A DNA stretch of 64,000 bases from an uncultured Bacteroidales bacterium. GTDB taxonomy: Bacteria; Bacteroidota; Bacteroidia; Bacteroidales; Paludibacteraceae. Position 1 is the first letter of the stretch; every line of letters starts with the position of its first letter. Below the pieces are notes generated by a model, which searched no databases, had not been told where the DNA came from, and saw only the letters and a program-made list of their open reading frames with translations. Of the stretch, positions 3,140 to 12,256 are shown piece after piece. Both the position numbers and the translations under genes were made by a program. The stretch lies in contig CAIUTB010000035.1 in assembly GCA_903901975.1 (NCBI GenBank), positions 1 to 64,000 of the forward strand, in the 5' to 3' direction.

Positions 3140-4618
3140 TTATTCTACAATTTTCTTCATGGCAGTCATGGCAGCACGCAGTTCAGCTCCACAAATTTCG
3201 ATAGAGTGGTTGCGGATTTCAGCATTTACTTTTACCAGTTCGAAGTTGTCGACGTGTCCGTTTTTACCTGCATTGAAGTTTTTACCAATCACGTTGGTAT
3301 CAATTTTCTTCATAAAGTCAGCCAACAATGGTTTGCAGGCATGATCGAATAAATAGCAGCCGTATTCAGCCGTATCGGAAATAACGCGGTTCATTTCGAA
3401 CAGTTTTTTGCGGGCAATGGTATTGGCAATCAGCGGAGTTTCGTGTAACGATTCGTAGTAAGCCGATTCGTTTTTGATACCCGAGCAAGTCATAGTTTCG
3501 TAAGCCAACTCAACACCCGATTTCACGAAAGCAACCATCAATACTGCGTTATCGAAATATTCCTGTTCAGAGATTTCAACGTCACCTGCAGGAGTTTTCT
3601 CGAAAGCAGTTTCGCCGGTAGCAGCACGCCATGCCAACAGATTTTTGTCACCCGCAGCCCAGTCTTCCATCATGGTTTTTGAGAATTCAGCCGACAAAAT
3701 ATCATCCATGTGTTTGATAAACAACGGACGCATAATGTCTTTCAGTTCTGCTGACAAATTGAAAGCTTCAATTTTAGCGGGATTCGACAAACGATCCATC
3801 ATGTTGGTGATACCACCAATTTTCAGGGCTTCGGTAATGGTTTCCCAACCGTACTGAACCAGTTTTGAAGCGTAACCTGCATCAATTCCTTTTTCAATCA
3901 TTTTGTTGAACGAAAGAATAGAACCGGTCTGCAGCAATCCGCAAAGGATAGTTTGTTCGCCCATTAAATCCGATTTCACTTCGGCAACGAATGACGAAAG
4001 CAATACACCGGCTTTGTGACCACCTGTACCCACGCAATAAGCTTTGGCAATCTCCAGACCGTCGCCGTTAGGATCGTTATCAGCATGAACTGCAATCAGG
4101 GTAGGAACACCGAAACCGCGAAGGTATTCGGCACGAACTTCAGAAGCAGGCGATTTGGGCGCAATCATCACAACTGTAATGTCTTTACGAATCTGAGTGC
4201 CTTCTTCCACAATGTTGAAACCATGAGAATACGACAAACAAGCACCTTTTTTCATCAACGGCACCACAGCACTAACCACCGAAGTATGTTGTTTATCAGG
4301 AGCAAGGTTCGAAACTAAATCGGCTGTAGGAACCAATTCTTCGAAAGTACCCACTTTGAAACCGTTTTCGGTAGCATTTACATACGAAGCACGTTTGTTG
4401 TCGATAGCTTCCTGACGCAAAGCGTAAGACACGTCCAAACCACTGTCGCGCATGTTTTGACCCTGAGCCAAACCCTGAGCGCCACAACCGATGATGACGA
4501 TTTTCTTACCAATAAGTTTTTTAACTCCATCAGCGAATTCGCTGCTCTGCATAAAATCACATTTTCCTAGTTCCTGAACTTTCAGGCGGTGAGGTAGTGA
4601 ACTGAAATAATTTGCCAT
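3140..4618 (-). CDS. ilvC: Ketol-acid reductoisomerase, class II
   Basis: It converts acetolactate (or acetohydroxybutyrate) and NADPH into the dihydroxy acid, the second common step of valine, leucine and isoleucine synthesis. At 492 residues it is the long, two-knotted-domain class II form found in enteric bacteria and Bacteroidales, not the 330-residue class I form. The start MANYF, the LGKC motif near residue 17 and the Rossmann motif GCGAQG (44-49) match that class well. It is the last gene of the ilvD-ilvB-ilvN-thioesterase-ilvC series, 154 bp after the thioesterase gene, and a hairpin follows its stop. Confidence 0.97.
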
Positions 4619-4772: not shown

Positions 4773-5495
4773 TTAGAATACAAGCCTTGCCCGGCAGGCA
4801 GTTTTATCATCTTTGCTTATTTCGAAACGGAAATCTCCGGGAGCAATTTCCTGACCGACTATTTCAACAAAATCATCGAAAAACATTTCGTTCATAAAAT
4901 TGAATTCGTATCGTTTTACAGAATATTTTTTATAGCAATTCAACGAAAAACAATCGCTAATCCACTGAATATACCGCATACTGCTCACGTGCCCATTAAT
5001 ATCAATATCGCTGTATTTCACTTTGAAACCATCGTATTCTTCGCCTTCAACAGCATCCAATTTTATAGGTTTTTCTATCAAACCCGGTTCGTTCGATGCA
5101 AACTGCTGTATGCCTTCCAAAGTCAGTAAATCCTTTGCACGGCGCGTATTTAAATCGAGCATAACCCAATTAGAACAAGCATTTCCGATAATCTCATTTT
5201 TTGAATCACGGATGGTAAAATTACGCGTTGTACTGGCACGTCCCACTTCCTCAATCCAGGTTTCCACATTAATATCTTCATATTGTTGGGGAAACCGATT
5301 CATTTCAACAGCAAAGCGGATTAGCACCCATGTACATTCTTTTTCATTCAGAAACCGAATGCCAAAACCATTATCATCTGCATTGTAACCGGCTGTTGTC
5401 AACAAAATATTGGCCAAAGCCGACATGGTTACATTATATTGAAAATCTACATCCTGAGGCTGAACTCGAAAGGAATATGTTTTTCGGTGCGACAT
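4773..5495 (-). CDS. Acyl-ACP thioesterase-like (double hot-dog) protein
   Basis: The 240-residue protein has two hot-dog folds of the FatA/acyl-ACP thioesterase family, which hydrolyses acyl-ACP to free fatty acid. The N-terminal half carries the RFAVEMNRFPQQYEDINVETW-type strand region (about 77-97). The C-terminal half has the YSDIDINGHVSSMRYIQW motif (about 160-177), including the Asn-Gly-His helix start typical of the family. It lies between ilvN (31 bp away) and ilvC. This placement is known in Bacteroidales and may link branched-chain metabolism to branched fatty acids, but that link is inference. Substrate length cannot be told. Confidence 0.85.
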   Translation of the reverse strand: MSHRKTYSFRVQPQDVDFQYNVTMSALANILLTTAGYNADDNGFGIRFLNEKECTWVLIRFAVEMNRFPQQYEDINVETWIEEVGRASTTRNFTIRDSKNEIIGNACSNWVMLDLNTRRAKDLLTLEGIQQFASNEPGLIEKPIKLDAVEGEEYDGFKVKYSDIDINGHVSSMRYIQWISDCFSLNCYKKYSVKRYEFNFMNEMFFDDFVEIVGQEIAPGDFRFEISKDDKTACRARLVF

Positions 5496-5526: not shown

Positions 5527-6072
5527 TTATTTTTTTTCAAATTTTTGCTGTATGCTTTCCAACATATCGCTCAAGCGTTCCACTTTCGAGCGGGTTATAG
5601 CCACACGACCAGAACGAATAAACTGCAATACACCTATCGATTCGCTTAATTCTTCAAACATTTGTTGAGTTTCTTCGTAATGTCCGGCCTTCTGTAAAAC
5701 GGCATAATCAGGAGTCATTTCAAGAATGCGGATATGGTACTTGCGAACCAGTTCTTCGATTGAGCCTAACCCCAGCAATTTTTCTGTCGACACCTTATAC
5801 AAAGCAATTTCCTGAAAAACCAGATCTTCATCAGTGTTGTAATATGCTTTTAAAATATCGACCCGTTTGTCAATCTGCTTCACGACTTTCGACACAATGT
5901 CTTCGGTAGTAAGTACAGTAATGGTAAATTTATGAATGCCTTTCAGAGCTGATGGAGAAACAGAAAGTGTTTCAATATTGATGGCCCGACGAGTAAAAAT
6001 AATGGTTATCTGACCCAGCAAACCTACTGAATTTTCAGAAAAAACGGTGATGGTATATAGTTTATTTTCCAT
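5527..6072 (-). CDS. ilvN: Acetolactate synthase small (regulatory) subunit
   Basis: A regulatory subunit of acetohydroxyacid synthase that binds valine and activates the catalytic subunit. The N-terminal ACT domain (about residues 1-75) shows YTITVFSENSVGLLGQI and the NIETLSVSPS segment; the rest is the family's C-terminal domain. I place the start at the ATG at 6072 (181 residues, MENKLY) because this matches the family start. An in-frame ATG at 6105 would add 11 residues that look like non-coding repeat sequence. It follows ilvB by about 90 bp. Confidence 0.93.
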   Translation of the reverse strand: MENKLYTITVFSENSVGLLGQITIIFTRRAINIETLSVSPSALKGIHKFTITVLTTEDIVSKVVKQIDKRVDILKAYYNTDEDLVFQEIALYKVSTEKLLGLGSIEELVRKYHIRILEMTPDYAVLQKAGHYEETQQMFEELSESIGVLQFIRSGRVAITRSKVERLSDMLESIQQKFEKK

Positions 6073-6074
6073 AA

Positions 6075-6160
6075 TAATCTTAATTTTCAATGATTCAATT
6101 TCCAATTATCAATTAAAGAACGTCTTCATTGGAAATTGAAAATTAAACAATTGGTAATTG
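6075..6160. repeat. Inverted repeat between ilvB and ilvN
   Basis: The spacer holds AT-rich segments (CAATTTTCAATG...TTCCAATTATCAATT and their near-complements GGAAATTGAAAATT...AATTGGTAATTG) that can fold into a long weak hairpin. No U-tract follows. It may only be a drifting repeat or may modulate the ilvB/ilvN ratio. Confidence 0.35.
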
Positions 6161-6162
6161 AA

Positions 6163-7857
6163 TTAGTCTCCTAAAAGTATATTAGTTACAGTTGCTCCGG
6201 CAGGCATCATTGGATAAACCATACCTTTTTTCTCAACATTTACAACCAACAAATATGGTTTGTCGTCTTTCAACATATCAGCAATAGCCGCATCCAGGTC
6301 TTCACGTACGTGAACTTCTGTTCCGTCAATGCGATAGGCTTTGGCAATGGCAATAAAATCCGGGTTTTGCATTTCGGTAAACGAATAACGCTCTTCGAAA
6401 AACATTTCCTGCCACTGACGCACCATACCCAGAAAGTGATTGTTCAGAATAATCATCTTCACGCCAATCTGTTCCTGCATTATAGTCCCCAATTCCTGAA
6501 TAGTCATTTGAAAACCACCATCACCGGCAAACATACAAACGGTACGTTCGGGAGCACCCATTTTTGCGCCCATAGCAGCCGGAATACCGAATCCCATCGT
6601 TCCCAAACCGCCCGAAGTAACCATACTACGAGTTTTTGTGTAATTAAAATAACGGGCTGCCATCATTTGGTTCTGACCAACATCGGTTACCAAAATAGCT
6701 TCATTATTGGTTGCATGAGTGATTTTATGAATTACCTCACCCATAGTCAATTCACCCGATTCAGGATGAACTTCACGTTGAATAACTTTTTCAAACTCAA
6801 GTGTTTCATATTCCTTGAATGATTCAATCCACTCTGTGTGTTTTGCCGGATTTAATTTAGCCGTTATTGCTGGCAATGTTTCTTTCGTTGTACCCAAAAC
6901 CGGTGCATCGGGCTTCACGTTTTTACCAATTTCAGCAGCATCAATATCTAAATGAATAATTTTTGCCTGTTTGGCATAAGTATTTAAATCGCCTGTAACA
7001 CGGTCGTCGAAACGCATTCCGATGGCAATCAGTACATCACATTCGTTGGTTTTTTTATTTGGAGCAACGTTTCCGTGCATTCCTAAAAATCCTTTATTCA
7101 AAGGAAAGTCAGTTGGCATTGCCGACGATCCGAGCAAAGTCCAGGCAGCAGGAATATCGGCTTTTTCAAGAAACGCTAACAATTCTTTTTCGGCATTTCC
7201 CAAAATAACTCCCTGACCTACCAGTGCAAATGGCTTTTTAGCTCCATTTATCAATGCAGCAGCCGCTTCAATCTGCGAAGGTTGAACTTCAGGTATTGGC
7301 AAATAACTGCGAATAAAAGTACAGGGTTTATAATCGAATTCGACTTCCTGAATCTGTGCATTTTTGGCAAAATCCAGCACAACCGGTCCCGGACGACCGC
7401 TGCGTGCAATGTAAAATGCACGAGCCACTGCCCAGGCAATATCTTCGGGACGGCGAATCTGATACGCCCATTTGGTAATTGGTTGAGTAATTCCCACCAC
7501 ATCAATTTCCTGAAAAGCATCAGTTCCCAGCAAAGTAGCACCAACCTGACCGGTGATAACCACCATAGGGGTACTGTCGAGCATAGCATCCGCAATTCCG
7601 GTAACGGCATTGGTTGCAGCAGGTCCTGAAGTTACCAACGCAACTCCTACTTTTCCCGAAACACGTGCATAACCCTGTGCAGCATGTGTTGCACCTTGTT
7701 CGTGACGGGTAAGAATATGATTGATATGTTTGTCATAATCGTAAAGTGCATCGAATACGGGCATAATAGCCCCGCCCGGATACCCGAAAATCGTATCAAC
7801 ACCTTCTTCTATAAGCGCCTGCATAAAAGCATGAGCGCCGGTTATTTTATTTCCCAT
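6163..7857 (-). CDS. ilvB: Acetolactate synthase large (catalytic) subunit
   Basis: This thiamine-diphosphate enzyme condenses pyruvate with pyruvate or 2-oxobutyrate, the committed step to branched-chain amino acids. The 564 residues show the three-domain ThDP fold. The N-terminal domain contains FGYPGGAIMP (about 24-33) and catalytic Glu53 in RHEQGATH. The C-terminal domain contains the cofactor motif AGDGGFQM ending in NN. FAD-domain residues lie in between. It pairs with ilvN 90 bp downstream. The 121-bp gap to ilvD carries two copies of the CCCC-type repeat. Confidence 0.97.
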   Translation of the reverse strand: MGNKITGAHAFMQALIEEGVDTIFGYPGGAIMPVFDALYDYDKHINHILTRHEQGATHAAQGYARVSGKVGVALVTSGPAATNAVTGIADAMLDSTPMVVITGQVGATLLGTDAFQEIDVVGITQPITKWAYQIRRPEDIAWAVARAFYIARSGRPGPVVLDFAKNAQIQEVEFDYKPCTFIRSYLPIPEVQPSQIEAAAALINGAKKPFALVGQGVILGNAEKELLAFLEKADIPAAWTLLGSSAMPTDFPLNKGFLGMHGNVAPNKKTNECDVLIAIGMRFDDRVTGDLNTYAKQAKIIHLDIDAAEIGKNVKPDAPVLGTTKETLPAITAKLNPAKHTEWIESFKEYETLEFEKVIQREVHPESGELTMGEVIHKITHATNNEAILVTDVGQNQMMAARYFNYTKTRSMVTSGGLGTMGFGIPAAMGAKMGAPERTVCMFAGDGGFQMTIQELGTIMQEQIGVKMIILNNHFLGMVRQWQEMFFEERYSFTEMQNPDFIAIAKAYRIDGTEVHVREDLDAAIADMLKDDKPYLLVVNVEKKGMVYPMMPAGATVTNILLGD

Positions 7858-7947: not shown

Positions 7948-7980
7948 GACCCAATAGCCCCCTTAAGGGGGTTGGGGGTC
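7948..7980. repeat. CCCCTTTAGGGG-family repeat, palindromic
   Basis: Outer arms GACCC/GGGTC enclose a perfect CCCCCTTAAGGGGG core, directly at the ilvD stop codon. It is the second copy in the ilvD-ilvB gap. It could form a stable hairpin in the operon mRNA, but no U-tract follows. Confidence 0.7.
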
Positions 7981-9862
7981 AGTCAATCATTCTCACCGCA
8001 CCTTTATCGGCAGAACTTACCATACTTGCATAAGCTCTCAGGGCTTTTGAGACAATTCTATTTCTATCTTTCGGTTTAAATGCATCCTTGCCACGTGCCA
8101 ATTCAGCTTCGCGACGTATTTGCAATTCTGCCTCACTAACTTTTACATTCATACTGCGGTTTGGTATATCAATTTCAATCATATCACCATCCACAATTAA
8201 TCCGATATTGCCACCTGAAGCAGCTTCGGGAGAAACATGTCCGATAGATAATCCGGAAGTTCCACCGGAGAAACGACCATCAGTAATCAACGCACATGCG
8301 GCACCAAGATGTTTCGATTTGATATACGAAGTTGGATAAAGCATTTCCTGCATACCGGGGCCACCTTTAGGTCCTTCGTGAGTAATCACTACCACATCAC
8401 CTGCAACAACTTTTCCACTCAGAATTCCGGTACAGGCACTATCCTGCGACGTAAATACTTTGGCTGGTCCGCTGAACTTCCAGATACTTTCGTCAACACC
8501 GGCAGTCTTTATAACGCATCCATCCTGTGCAATGTTCCCTTTCAGAATGCCTAATCCACCATCTTTGGTGTAAGCATGTTCAACGCTGCGGATACAACCA
8601 CCAACCCGGTCACCATCCAACTCGGGATATTGTACGCTTTGCGAACCCATAACCAGATTAAAACGGTGTGCCGGAGCACTTTTATATATTTCAATAGCTT
8701 TGACAATAACTGTCGGAGCCGTAATATCATAGTATTCAATAGCTTGTCCCAAAGTCAGTCCGTCAACACGTAAAACCGACTTATTGACCAAATCCCCTTT
8801 ACTTAGTTCAGCCAGAATACCCAAAATTCCACCGGCACGATTTACATCCTGAATATGATATTTCTGCGAATTCGGTGCAACTTTACATAAACAAGGAGTA
8901 ACACGAGAAAGTTTATCCATATCGTCCATTGTCAGTTCTACTTCAGCTTCGTGCGCAATGGCAAGAATATGCAAAACGGTATTGGTTGAACCACCCATGG
9001 CAATGTCCAGCGTCATGGCATTCAGGAATGCTTCACGGGTGGCTATTGAACGTGGTAAAACAGAATTATCCCCTTCAAAGTAATATTTATTGGCATTGTC
9101 AACAATCAACTTAGCTGCATCAACAAAAAGTTGTGTACGGTTTGAGTGTGTAGCCACAATTGTTCCGTTACCGGGCAAAGCTAAGCCAATTGCTTCGTTC
9201 AGACAGTTCATAGAATTAGCTGTAAACATTCCAGAGCAAGACCCGCAAGTTGGACATGCAGCATTTTCAATTTTCTTTACCTGTTCATCCGATACACTTT
9301 CATCAGCCGACTGCACCATAGCATCCACCAAATCAAGATGTTTTCCATCCAATTCGCCGGCTTCCATTGGTCCACCCGAAACAAAAACACAGGGAATATT
9401 CAATCGCATGGCTGCCATCAGCATTCCCGGTGTAATTTTATCGCAGTTACTGATACACACCATGGCATCAGCTTTGTGAGCATTGACCATATATTCAACA
9501 CTATCAGCAATCAAATCCCGCGATGGTAAAGAATAAAGCATACCATCATGACCCATGGCTATTCCATCGTCGATGGCAATGGTATTAAATTCGGCTGCAA
9601 AACAGCCTAGTTTTTCTATTTCATCTTTGACTTTCTGACCAATTTCGTGCAAATGTACATGACCCGGAACAAATTGAGTAAATGAATTTACAATGGCAAT
9701 AATGGGTTTCCCCATTTGTTTATCTGTCATTCCATTTGCCTTCCAAAGTGAGCGTGCTCCAGCCATTCTACGGCCACCGGTGCTGGTTGCACTACGAAGA
9801 AGTTGCCCCCCAGCCCCGTGAAGGGAGAGTTTTGTTGTAAAATCTTTCTTAATATTTATCAT
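7979..9862 (-). CDS. ilvD: Dihydroxy-acid dehydratase
   Basis: An iron-sulfur enzyme that dehydrates 2,3-dihydroxy acids to 2-oxo acids, the third common step of branched-chain synthesis. Cluster-binding cysteines are visible in [13 protein letters not shown] and in [17 protein letters not shown]. The C-terminal catalytic region with [13 protein letters not shown] is intact. The protein has 627 residues, somewhat long. The family normally starts shortly before the [13 protein letters not shown] segment. Here about 25 extra residues precede it, and part of them ([10 protein letters not shown]) is encoded by a copy of the CCCC-type repeat at 9804-9829. It is the first structural gene after the leader peptide and attenuator and probably leads the operon through ilvC. 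Confidence 0.96.
9804..9829. repeat. CCCC-family repeat inside the ilvD coding sequence
   Basis: TGCCCCCCAGCCCCGTGAAG on the plus strand matches the intergenic repeat at 9914-9935 read in reverse (GCCCCCTAACCCCCTAAAGG) with few differences. Here it is translated as part of the extra N-terminal segment of IlvD. Confidence 0.55.
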
Positions 9863-9913: not shown

Positions 9914-9935
9914 ACCCTTTAGGGGGTTAGGGGGC
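9914..9935. repeat. CCCC-family repeat upstream of ilvD
   Basis: ACCCTTTAGGGGGTTAGGGG lies between the attenuator terminator and the ilvD start, inside the expected 5' leader of the ilv mRNA. Confidence 0.65.
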
Positions 9936-9945
9936 AATTTAATAA

Positions 9946-9980
9946 AAAAACCTTTCTCCGTTATGGTGAGAAAGGTTTTT
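9946..9980 (-). terminator. Attenuator terminator of the ilv leader
   Basis: On the minus strand a GC-containing stem AACCTTTCTC/GAGAAAGGTT with a 9-nt loop is followed by seven T residues, a textbook intrinsic terminator. It lies between the leader peptide and ilvD, so transcripts that stop here never reach the structural genes. The 5' arm contains TCTCAC, which is complementary to GTGAGA at the leader peptide's stop codon (10010-10015), giving a possible antiterminator pairing. Confidence 0.85.
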
Positions 9981-10011
9981 GATATTTACATTCATTTATA
10001 TAGCAACCATC

Positions 10012-10074
10012 TCACTTTTGATTTATGACCAAAAGAAACACGACGAGAACAGTATAAATGCATTGAAAATTCAT
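10012..10074 (-). CDS. ilv operon leader peptide (attenuation)
   Basis: A 20-codon ORF, MNFQCIYTVLVVFLLVINQK, starts 21 nt after a strong promoter and ends 32 nt before a terminator hairpin. Nine of its residues are Ile, Val or Leu, and positions 9-17 are V-L-V-V-F-L-L-V-I. This is the signature of transcription attenuation: when charged branched-chain tRNAs are scarce the ribosome should stall in this run, leave the stop-codon region free to pair with the terminator's 5' arm, and allow transcription into ilvD. The gene is too short for usual gene callers. The role is inferred from position and composition; enteric ilv operons use the same logic. Confidence 0.85.
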   Translation of the reverse strand: MNFQCIYTVLVVFLLVINQK

Positions 10075-10094
10075 TATCTTTATATAATTTGCTG

Positions 10095-10125
10095 CAAAGT
10101 TACACGAAGTTTTCGAAATTTCAAA
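10095..10125 (-). promoter_or_regulatory. Promoter of the ilv operon
   Basis: On the minus strand TTTG (10122-10125) and TAACTTTG (10095-10102) are separated by exactly 19 bp, matching the Bacteroidetes primary-sigma consensus TTTG-N19-21-TAnnTTTG. The transcript would start about 10-15 nt before the leader peptide ATG. Confidence 0.8.
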
Positions 10126-10330: not shown

Positions 10331-12256
10331 ATGAACGAAAAAGACTTTCATTATATCAATCATATTAACTCCCCCATTGATTTAAAAGCAGTCAAACGCA
10401 ATGAACTTACATTGGTATGTGACGAGCTAAGACAATTTATCATTGACGAAGTTTCAAAAAACCCGGGTCATTTGGGTTCAAGTTTGGGCGTAGTTGAGCT
10501 TTCAGTGGCACTTCATTATGTTTTTAACACACCTTACGATCGCATCGTGTGGGATGTGGGTCATCAGGCTTATGGGCATAAGATTCTGACTGGTCGTCGA
10601 GATCAGTTTCACACCAACAGACAGTTTAAAGGACTTTGCGGTTTTCCAACACCTAAGGAAAGTGAGTATGATGCTTTTGGGGTAGGTCATTCTTCCACTT
10701 CCATTTCCGCAGGATTAGGGATGTCAGTGGCATCCTTACTAAAAGCAGAGCCCAAACGTCAGGTTGTAGCTGTAATTGGTGATGGTGCTATGACCGGCGG
10801 ATTGGCTTTTGAGGGACTTAATAATGCTTCGATGAGCCAAAATAATATGTTGATTATTCTGAACGATAATCAAATGGCCATAGATCCGATTCAGGGTGGC
10901 TTTACACAATACCTGGTAGATATAACCACTTCCAGGGCTTATAATAAAATCCGCTATAAGACCTACAATTTAATGAAAAAAATTGGGTTGATAAACGAAA
11001 GAGGAAGAGACCGGATTATTAGTTTCAACAATACTGTAAAAGCAGCCCTATCAAAACAACATAATATTTTTGAAGGATTGAATATTCGCTATTTTGGACC
11101 GGTTGACGGACACGATGTGGATGAACTTGTTCGCATTATGTCAGAAATCAAAAAATTTAACGGACCAAAAGTTCTTCATATCATTACTAAAAAAGGAAAA
11201 GGCTATGAACCGGCTGAAAATTCAGCTACCGAATGGCATGCTCCCGGATTATTTAATGTAGAAACAGGTGAACGCAAGAATTGTACAACAACCGACCCAA
11301 CCCCACCACTTTTTCAGGATGTATTTGGAAAAACATTGCTAAAACTGGCATTGAAAAACGATAAGATTGTAGCCATAACACCTGCCATGCCAAGCGGTTG
11401 CTCCATGACGATCATGCAAAAAGAATTACCTCAGCGTGTTTTCGACGTAGGAATTGCCGAAGCTCATGCCGTAACATTCTCAGCCGGAATGGCCAAAGAA
11501 GGCATGATTCCATTTTGTAACATCTATTCATCGTTTATGCAACGGGCTTACGACAATGTGATTCACGATGTGGCCTTACAAAATTTGAGTGTGATATTTT
11601 GTCTCGACCGGGCAGGATTAGTTGGTTCTGATGGCGCCACTCACCACGGACAATTTGACTTGGCCTATATGCGTTGTATTCCGAACCTAATCATTTCAGC
11701 GCCACGAAATGAAATTGAGCTCCGCAATTTAATGTACACTGCCCAGCTTAAAGAAAGAGGTCCTTTTGTGATTCGCTACCCCCGTGGAAAAGGTTCGATA
11801 GTAGACTGGCGCAAACCTTTCGAGCAAGTGGAAATTGGCAAAGGAGAATGCCTTAAAAGCGGAAAGGATCTGGCTGTCCTGACACTTGGAACGATGGCAA
11901 TTCCTTCAGCCAAAGCCATTGAGATAATTGAAAAGGAACAACATGTTTCAATTGCACATTACGATTTGCGCTTTTTGAAACCACTTGATGAAAGCATGCT
12001 TCACGAAGTAGCCATGAACTTTAAAAAGATAATTACGATTGAAGATGGTGTGATTAATGGCGGATTTGGCAGTGCAGTGCTCGAATTTATGGCAGACAAT
12101 AACTATACTCCTCAGCTGAAACGACTTGGAATACCCGACAGCTTTATTGAACACGGTACTCCCGAAGAATTATATCATATGCTTGGACTCGATGTTGAAG
12201 GGATCGCAGCCCGTATTTCGGAACAAATTAAAGCGACTAAGCCAGCAAAAGTGTGA
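10331..12256 (+). CDS. dxs: 1-deoxy-D-xylulose-5-phosphate synthase
   Basis: A thiamine-diphosphate enzyme that joins pyruvate and glyceraldehyde 3-phosphate, the first step of the MEP route to isoprenoids (and of thiamine and pyridoxal precursors). The 641-residue length is normal. Visible motifs are HLGSSLG near 50, the substrate/ThDP region [15 protein letters not shown], the cofactor motif GDGAMTGG (about 150-157) and the transketolase pyrimidine-binding domain with [15 protein letters not shown]. It stands alone on the plus strand between the divergent ilv leader and the convergent dnaX gene, with a strong terminator after it. Confidence 0.97.

Follow-up and report, generated by a model that had tools for sequence, protein, structure and literature searches.

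Organization of the ilv operon and its leader region

The window (the whole 64,000-nt stretch of DNA analyzed here) carries a run of branched-chain amino acid genes that lie on the same strand in the order ilvD, ilvB, ilvN, an acyl-ACP thioesterase-like gene, and ilvC (Table 1). The thioesterase-like gene matches no NCBIfam model at E <= 1e-10. Among named proteins, the best matches to IlvD come from MAGs labeled Porphyromonas (84%) and Paludibacter (81%), which suggests a Paludibacter-like genome of the Bacteroidales. Between ilvD and a divergently oriented dxs-like gene, a compact module can be read directly from the sequence at positions 10125 to 9944 of the minus strand. We number its pairing regions so that 1:2 denotes a protector, 2:3 an antiterminator, and 3:4 the terminator.

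Table 1. Genes and leader elements of the ilv locus (window coordinates)
Feature	Position	Strand	Basis
ilvC	3140..4618	minus	NF003557, 871.2 bits (cut-off 713)
Acyl-ACP thioesterase-like gene, inside the gene run	4773..5495	minus	PF01643 and PF20791, above cut-offs
ilvN	5527..6105	minus	TIGR00119, 78.8 bits (cut-off 56.9)
ilvB	6163..7857	minus	TIGR00118, 698.7 bits (cut-off 538.35)
ilvD, first structural gene	7979..9862	minus	NF009103, 1054.8 bits (cut-off 710)
Intrinsic terminator 3:4 (predicted) with T7 tract	9944..9980	minus	Sequence, folding
Region 3, AACCTTTCTCAC; terminator 5' arm that pairs with region 2 as antiterminator	9966..9977	minus	Sequence, duplex
Region 2', 3' part of the protector; predicted partner, early leader codons	9979..10005	minus	Own-versus-swapped test, 62 pairs
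Region 2, GTGAGATGGTT; overlaps the leader TGA stop	10005..10015	minus	Duplex with region 3, co-variation
Leader ORF MNFQCIYTVLVVFLLVINQK, 20 codons plus TGA	10012..10074	minus	Sequence
Protector (1:2) component: small hairpin CTTTTG (10035-10030)/CAAAAG (10020-10015) within the leader frame, at its 3' end	10015..10035	minus	RNAalifold consensus
Control codons V-L-V-V-F-L-L-V-I, leader residues 9-17	10024..10050	minus	Sequence
Promoter-like site TTTG-N19-TAACTTTG, presumed Bacteroidota type	10095..10125	minus	Sequence
dxs-like gene, upstream flank of the module	10331-12256	plus	Name from reading the translation

The first-pass annotation had described a promoter, a 20-codon frame with a run of branched-chain codons, and a terminator with a seven-T run before ilvD, and each of these is present; the ilvD frame begins at 9862. 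The leader holds 8 Ile, Leu, or Val (ILV) residues within a 10-residue window. The same annotation had pointed to complementarity between GTGAGA and TCTCAC. GTGAGA, at 10015-10010, overlaps the leader TGA stop, and the pairing extends further than had been claimed: GTGAGA-T-GGTT (10015-10005) can form 10 pairs with AACC-TT-TCTCAC (9977-9966), with a small internal loop, at -12.9 kcal/mol. A consensus scan for promoters and terminators lists neither the promoter nor the terminator; that scan seeks sigma-70 hexamers and its own terminator pattern.

Folding of the 161-nt leader RNA gave a structure more stable than that of 198 of 200 shuffles. In an RNAalifold alignment of 21 sequences, the window's own among them, 9 of the 12 terminator pairs are unbroken in every sequence. 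The motifs CTTTTGGT, CA, and GTGAG are invariant among these close relatives, and the small hairpin of the leader frame is drawn on that basis. For the helix formed by region 2', the window's own sequence gives a low stability (-8.6 kcal/mol). Two-sided changes were seen at just 1 of 20 pairs in the alignment, since the stems hardly differ among close relatives; hence the arm-swapping tests over wider sets described below.

A terminator ahead of an ilv operon could also be controlled by a T-box or some other tRNA- or metabolite-binding riboswitch, T-boxes being known regulators of ilv operons in Firmicutes. We give this next to no chance, since the leader ORF and the pairing regions take up the approximately 180 nt from the promoter to the T tract. 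No Rfam family reached its gathering score anywhere in the window, and the 15 matches at E <= 10 between 9850 and 10200, all under their gathering scores, include neither a T-box nor Bacteroid-trp. One of the Rfam candidates, Phe_leader, scored 20.8 bits against a cut-off of 55 and was set aside as chance level.

Between the terminator and ilvD, at 9915-9935, lies a GCCCCCTAACCCCCTAAAGGG stretch. Similar strings precede ilvD at two close loci (L006 and L071) and are absent from the other 13 of the 16 close loci checked; another follows a trp leader (L294). The stretch is probably a dispersed repeat.

Distribution of the module

We collected 260 regions upstream of ilvD. A family sample of 150 genomes gave 93 with an ilvD match, and 70 regions were fetched; an order sample of 198 genomes gave 83 with a match, and 60 regions, mostly the higher-scoring ones, were fetched. 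To these were added 80 named loci, the 30 best phylum loci (L153-L182), and 20 class/phylum regions. The phylum loci were found with TIGR00110; a search with the window's IlvD protein, for which the E-value limit was too strict, matched only 1 of 158 genomes. A strict detector asked for three things: an ATG-started ORF of 8-45 codons with at least 7 ILV residues in 10; within 95 nt, a terminator at least as stable as -9.5 kcal/mol with 6 T of 8; and pairing of regions 2 and 3 at least as stable as -8 kcal/mol. In a relaxed version, the T-tract and ILV rules were loosened.

The strict detector found the complete module in 125 of the 260 regions (a few records occur twice) and in none of 260 reverse strands, one of which had leader and terminator only, or of 780 first-order Markov sequences. 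By group, the counts were 41/70 for the family, 34/80 for named loci, 43/60 for the order, 3/30 for the best phylum loci, and 4/20 for the class/phylum regions; under the relaxed rule, they became 43/70, 39/80 (one of them, L118, doubtful), 51/60, 3/30, and 4/20, with 0/260 Markov-shuffled and 1/260 reversed controls over all groups. Relaxation thus added 15 regions, for 140, of which L118 is probably false. The strict rule had missed real cases that could be recognized by eye (L015, L072, L074, L189, and L204). The three phylum loci scored as complete (L164, L169, and L173) were taken for G+C-rich false hits, and two class/phylum matches (L245 and L260) are doubtful; all five were left out of later counts.

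Of the 62 named loci that are Bacteroidota by label, 34 were complete under the strict rule and 39 under the relaxed one; none of the 18 non-Bacteroidota named loci with a similar IlvD was complete. By the relaxed rule, the module is missing from 23 of these 62 loci, 27 of the 70 family regions, and 9 of the 60 order regions. Fourteen of the 23 carry Prevotella, Prevotellaceae, or Marseilla labels (9) or belong to ruminant-gut Bacteroidaceae (5), and in 9 of these 14 a promoter match lies 67-99 nt before ilvD. A recognizable leader was not found in most of the Prevotella-like loci examined. Labels do not decide the matter, since one Prevotellaceae locus (L077) and one Bacteroidaceae locus (L108) do carry the module. 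Laboratory strains that have it include Bacteroides graminisolvens DSM 19988 (L074) and Phocaeicola faecalis (L083).

It had been proposed, as a check, to ask whether the leader is kept wherever promoter and terminator are kept. In general it is: leader and terminator occur in all 13 genomes of the window's genus in the 150-genome family sample, its own included. The rule breaks down in one other genus of the family (two genomes, L029 and L031, the latter also listed as L076), in which the promoter and a CCTTTCTC/CCTTCCTC terminator persist and no ILV-rich ATG frame was found in either locus. The leader region there is G+C-rich and folds on its own; the leader may have decayed, or a different sensor may have taken its place.

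Several further observations concern the form of the module. Three loci (L119, L121, and L122, from Labilibaculum, Marinifilum, and a Marinifilaceae MAG) have tandem attenuators in the 480 nt before ilvD, with two ILV-rich leaders, each of which has a terminator of its own and a segment that could pair with it. In family f22, of the same phylum and another class, an Ile/Val/Leu leader precedes ilvD in all four fetched genomes (L262, L300, L303, and L304); three leaders have the form MLS-I-SLVII-IIGI-Y (e.g., MLSVIISLVIIQIIGIPYHPGKAL), the fourth is MKNSVIPVVIINVIGYKHRSGNAIC, and the terminators (GCCTTTCC/GCCTTCCC) match. Of 128 distinct ilv modules, 71, from many families, retain CCTTTCTC as the terminator 5' arm. 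Any complementary pair would serve, yet this one is favored. In the window's own genome, CCTTTCTC-N3-12-GAGAAAGG occurs only at the ilv module and at one other, repeat-like place.

Co-variation of the pairing regions

If regions 2 and 3 pair, each region 2 should fit its own region 3 better than those of other loci. In a first set of 82 pairs, reduced to 72 by dropping L033, L048, L118, L127, L145, and duplicates, duplexes with the own arm averaged -13.3 kcal/mol and those with swapped arms -11.1, and 0 of 20,000 permutations reached the own value; here and below, permutation counts are not exact probabilities because the sequences are related. A second set comprised 85 distinct arms across families, without L164, L169, L173, L218, and repeated arms, and gave -14.5 for own against -10.5 +/- 0.26 kcal/mol for swapped arms (0/20,000). 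Ranked against all the others, the own arm came first or tied for first in 13 of the 85 cases (about 1 expected) and within the top three in 29 (about 3 expected); region 3 varies so little that many arms can stand in for one another.

Some co-changes can be read directly, such as CCTTTCTT with AAGAAAGG (L094), CCTTTCCC with GGGAAAGG (L038), GGCCCTTCC with GGAAGGGC (L107), and CCATTCTCA with TGAGAATGG (L116). Own arms being preferred over swapped ones, the comparison supports antiterminator 2:3 and terminator 3:4 as mutually exclusive partners of the same region 3.

The putative protector, in which early leader codons would pair with the segment after region 2, behaved in the same way. The 62 pairs used excluded L033, L048, L050, L054, L118, L119, L121, L122, L127, and L145, leaders with fewer than 7 ILV residues in 10, 2:3 duplexes weaker than -8 kcal/mol, and duplicates. 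Own segments averaged -13.3 kcal/mol and swapped ones -10.8 (0/20,000); split, the test gave 1/20,000 in the 21 close relatives and 0/20,000 in the other 41.

Leader composition and sister attenuators

Promoter matches, codon placement, and ribosome folding were studied in 113 distinct complete attenuators, a set without incomplete cases, duplicates, and nine loci (L050, L164, L169, L173, L182, L218, L245, L257, and L260). In 86 of them, the 75 nt preceding the leader ATG contain a match to TTG-N18-22-TANNTTTG, at a median distance of 23 nt, compared with 8 of 1,120 Markov controls. Only 1 of the 113 leaders has a Shine-Dalgarno-like site, and the context upstream of the start is A-rich.

Frame and codon use were examined in 68 distinct leaders, after seven loci and duplicates had been dropped. 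ILV content is specific to the leader frame: it is 54% there, and 23% and 8% when the other two forward frames are read. Of the Val codons, GTC accounts for 7% in 11 genes of the window, 45% in the genus-set leaders, and 48% in all 68; for CTC plus CTA among Leu codons, the corresponding values are 9%, 31%, and 37%. In theory, attenuator leaders use the codons whose tRNA runs out first. The bias toward GTC and toward CTC plus CTA fits this, and RNA pairing could also cause it, at least in part.

The window's own genome has a second attenuator, before leuA (L268/L297, the latter being G000:C60). Its leader, MNRNFLHILLLGIIILLQNK, contains Leu and Ile and no Val, and its terminator arm, GCCTTTCTCAC, is like that of ilv. 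A Leu/Ile leader with a terminator was present in 12 of 12 leuA upstream regions from the own and related genomes; in one of them (L264), the leader is MKNTFLSIILLGIILLENK, again with its terminator. The operon consists of leuA, leuC, leuD, and a citramalate synthase-like gene, for which the best model, citramalate synthase CimA, gives 662 bits, under its cut-off of 950. It would thus serve leucine synthesis and, probably, a route to isoleucine. Among the ILV residues of eleven leu leaders, 55% are Leu, 43% Ile, and 2% Val, and the twelfth has no Val; in the 15 ilv leaders of close relatives, the shares are 39% Leu, 18% Ile, and 43% Val. With Val at 2% in one case and 43% in the other, leader codons follow the products of the operon.

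Other amino acid operons showed related features. The own genome contains, outside the window, a match to Bacteroid-trp (RF01692) at 49.2 bits (cut-off 49), which covers a WWW leader (MNTILTINKFWWWHLQIS); by eye, a terminator-like hairpin can be made out after this leader. A terminator, often GTCCGTTA...TAACGGAC, is present upstream of hisG in 11 of 12 loci (L278-L289), and in 1 of the 12 (L278) a His-rich ORF, MKLYTSHHGHHHFLQ, precedes it.

Control codons and the position of the ribosome

The ILV run has a set distance from region 2. Counting codons back from region 2 in the 113 leaders, the ILV fraction is 94% at codons 6 and 5, 88% at codon 4, 50% at codon 3, 9% at codon 2, and 6% at codon 1. 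Between the end of the run and region 2 lie a median of 10 nt; the median deviation is 1 nt, as against 3 nt when the end is measured from the stop codon or the ATG. The position of the run is thus linked to region 2 itself and not just to the ORF boundaries.

These placements speak to two other readings. In one, the element would be a plain 5'-UTR terminator or the source of a leader-derived small RNA, with the ILV frame incidental and control exerted elsewhere, by a repressor, Rho, or an RNA-binding protein. The genus that keeps its terminator without an ILV leader would suit this reading, and terminated leaders can indeed be RNAs in their own right. Nevertheless, we regard it as very unlikely, since ILV enrichment is confined to one frame, is fixed relative to region 2, and changes with the products of the operon, and since complete modules were absent from all 780 Markov controls. 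In the other, the ribosome would be arrested by a nascent peptide sensing a metabolite or drug and not by slow decoding of Val, Leu, or Ile codons. The strong conservation of the peptide end LLV-NQ[KR] in close relatives might be taken as a sign of such arrest, but pairing of CTTTTGGT with CA-A-G in the RNA explains it. Moreover, the C termini differ in other families (VVVSDC, VLRR, and VVGA) while the distance from the ILV run to region 2 is nearly constant, and the leaders of the leu operon shift in composition to Leu plus Ile. We therefore regard peptide-mediated arrest as very unlikely, and slow decoding of the control codons remains our preferred reading.

We asked what ribosomes at different codons would do to the RNA by folding only the RNA downstream of the ribosome, up to region 3, with an assumed 10-nt overhang. 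Over the 113 leaders, a set chosen for having a 2:3 duplex, the mean predicted probability of 2:3 pairing was 0.85 for stalls at ILV codons, 0.59 at other codons, 0.05 at the stop codon, and 0.47 with no ribosome. For the window's leader, it was 0.94-0.98 for stalls from Ile6 to Val16, 0.77 at Ile17, 0.00 at the stop, and 0.04 with no ribosome. Under the assumed overhang, then, a stalled ribosome would leave region 2 free and a terminating one would cover it. All three textbook states were predicted for 50 of the 113 leaders, the window's included.

With no ribosome, equilibrium folding hides region 2 in only 58 of the 113 leaders. For three close relatives (L002, L003, and L004), the antiterminator is predicted instead, with probabilities of 0.82-0.95; the protector may therefore be weak. 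Among 119 complete cases, region 2 overlaps the stop codon in 58 and begins inside the ORF in 25, and in those 25 it would not be hidden by a ribosome at the stop codon.

Discussion

We propose that a ribosome-mediated transcription attenuator controls the ilv operon, and would put the chance that this is correct at roughly nine in ten. Most likely, the ilv genes are switched on when Val, Leu, or Ile runs short. The elements of the module, their conservation, the co-variation of the pairing regions, and the placement of the control codons are direct observations. From these we infer where transcription starts, that the leader is translated, that ribosome and polymerase are coupled, and that the system responds to amino acids.

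We imagine that RNA polymerase starts near position 10090 and that a ribosome translates the 20-codon leader behind it. A shortage of Val-, Leu-, or Ile-tRNA would stall this ribosome within V-L-V-V-F-L-L-V-I, with its downstream edge short of region 2; the protector 1:2 would be broken, and 2:3 would pair. With region 3 so engaged, no terminator would form, and ilvD-ilvB-ilvN-ilvC would be transcribed. Under ample supply, the ribosome would reach the stop codon and cover region 2, leaving 3:4 to pair and transcription to end in the T tract. With no ribosome on the leader, folding predicts that 1:2 favors termination in the window's leader and in only about half of its relatives. This is the leader-peptide attenuation, with stalling favoring antitermination, that the first-pass annotation had suggested, and comparison lends support to its structural steps through conservation of the module, frame-specific ILV content, and co-variation of 2:3 and of the putative 1:2.

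Beyond this one operon, we think there is a good chance that the attenuator is an ancestral feature of Bacteroidales at the least, and probably of a larger part of Bacteroidota, the latter because all four fetched f22 genomes, which lie outside the window's class, have a leader with a matching terminator. It would exist as a related ilv and leu pair with the same terminator arm (GCCTTTCTCAC or near), with codons set by pathway output (Val, Leu, and Ile in one case, Leu plus Ile via citramalate in the other). Within this scheme, Marinifilaceae would have doubled it to a tandem, and most Prevotella-like lineages would have lost it, in many cases along with a shift of the promoter to a site beside ilvD. 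The ilv/leu pair, its tandem copies, and its loss in some lineages are of more interest than a single attenuator.

Attenuation requires a ribosome close behind RNA polymerase. Bacteroidota start translation largely without Shine-Dalgarno sites, and to our knowledge ribosome-polymerase coupling in this phylum has been little studied. Since the ilv/leu pair is widespread and co-varies, coupling should exist at these leaders; if the pair is truly ancestral, transcription and translation would be tightly coupled at leaders that start without Shine-Dalgarno sites. The two attenuators would be ready-made reporters for such coupling. The finding further hints at the way in which major gut and environmental bacteria control their branched-chain amino acid synthesis, and it adds an RNA element that has no Rfam match at gathering score.

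The claim to novelty is a modest one. As judged from sequence comparison, this is a known kind of control, hardly described in this phylum, that co-variation indicates to be widespread. An abstract by Vitreschak et al. from 2004 reportedly mentions candidate amino acid attenuators in Bacteroidetes/Chlorobi, which is why we keep the claim modest. No ilv attenuator in Bacteroidota was found in the literature searched, and an earlier computational prediction may exist. The first-pass remark that no well-described ilv case was known from Bacteroidota thus stands for that literature; attenuation as such in Bacteroidetes is already in print, in the form of RF01692 and of the candidates in Flavobacterium psychrophilum.

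The closest known parallels to the system are the ribosome-mediated attenuators of the branched-chain operons ilvGMEDA and leuABCD in enteric bacteria. They share with it a leader peptide rich in the amino acids of the operon, mutually exclusive 2:3 and 3:4 helices, and an intrinsic terminator before the first gene, as well as a 1:2 helix that is putative here. The module described here differs in its presumed Bacteroidota-type promoter, in the near absence of Shine-Dalgarno-like sites (1 of 113 leaders), in its 20-codon leader, and in the overlap of region 2 with the stop codon in 58 of 119 cases.

Within the phylum, sORFs reminiscent of attenuation leaders have been noted in Bacteroides thetaiotaomicron, in a paper whose main text does not contain "ilv" (PMC7366714). 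Strong clues for leader-peptide attenuation before amino acid operons have been reported for F. psychrophilum, of a different order; the terms "branched-chain" and "isoleucine" are absent from its main text (PMC9723704). Bacteroid-trp (RF01692) is listed as cis-regulatory in Bacteroidetes (PMC2864571). It comes from the same phylum, but it concerns Trp codons and another operon, and its model has no match at the ilv leader. Outside the phylum, three hairpins are assumed for the regulatory region of Corynebacterium glutamicum ilvBNC, and a uORF is described for Corynebacterium ilvB-II (PMC10272879, PMC11857589). There the first gene is ilvB and not ilvD. What they have in common with the module described here is a leader peptide or uORF in front of an ilv operon outside the Proteobacteria (PMC10272879, PMC11857589).
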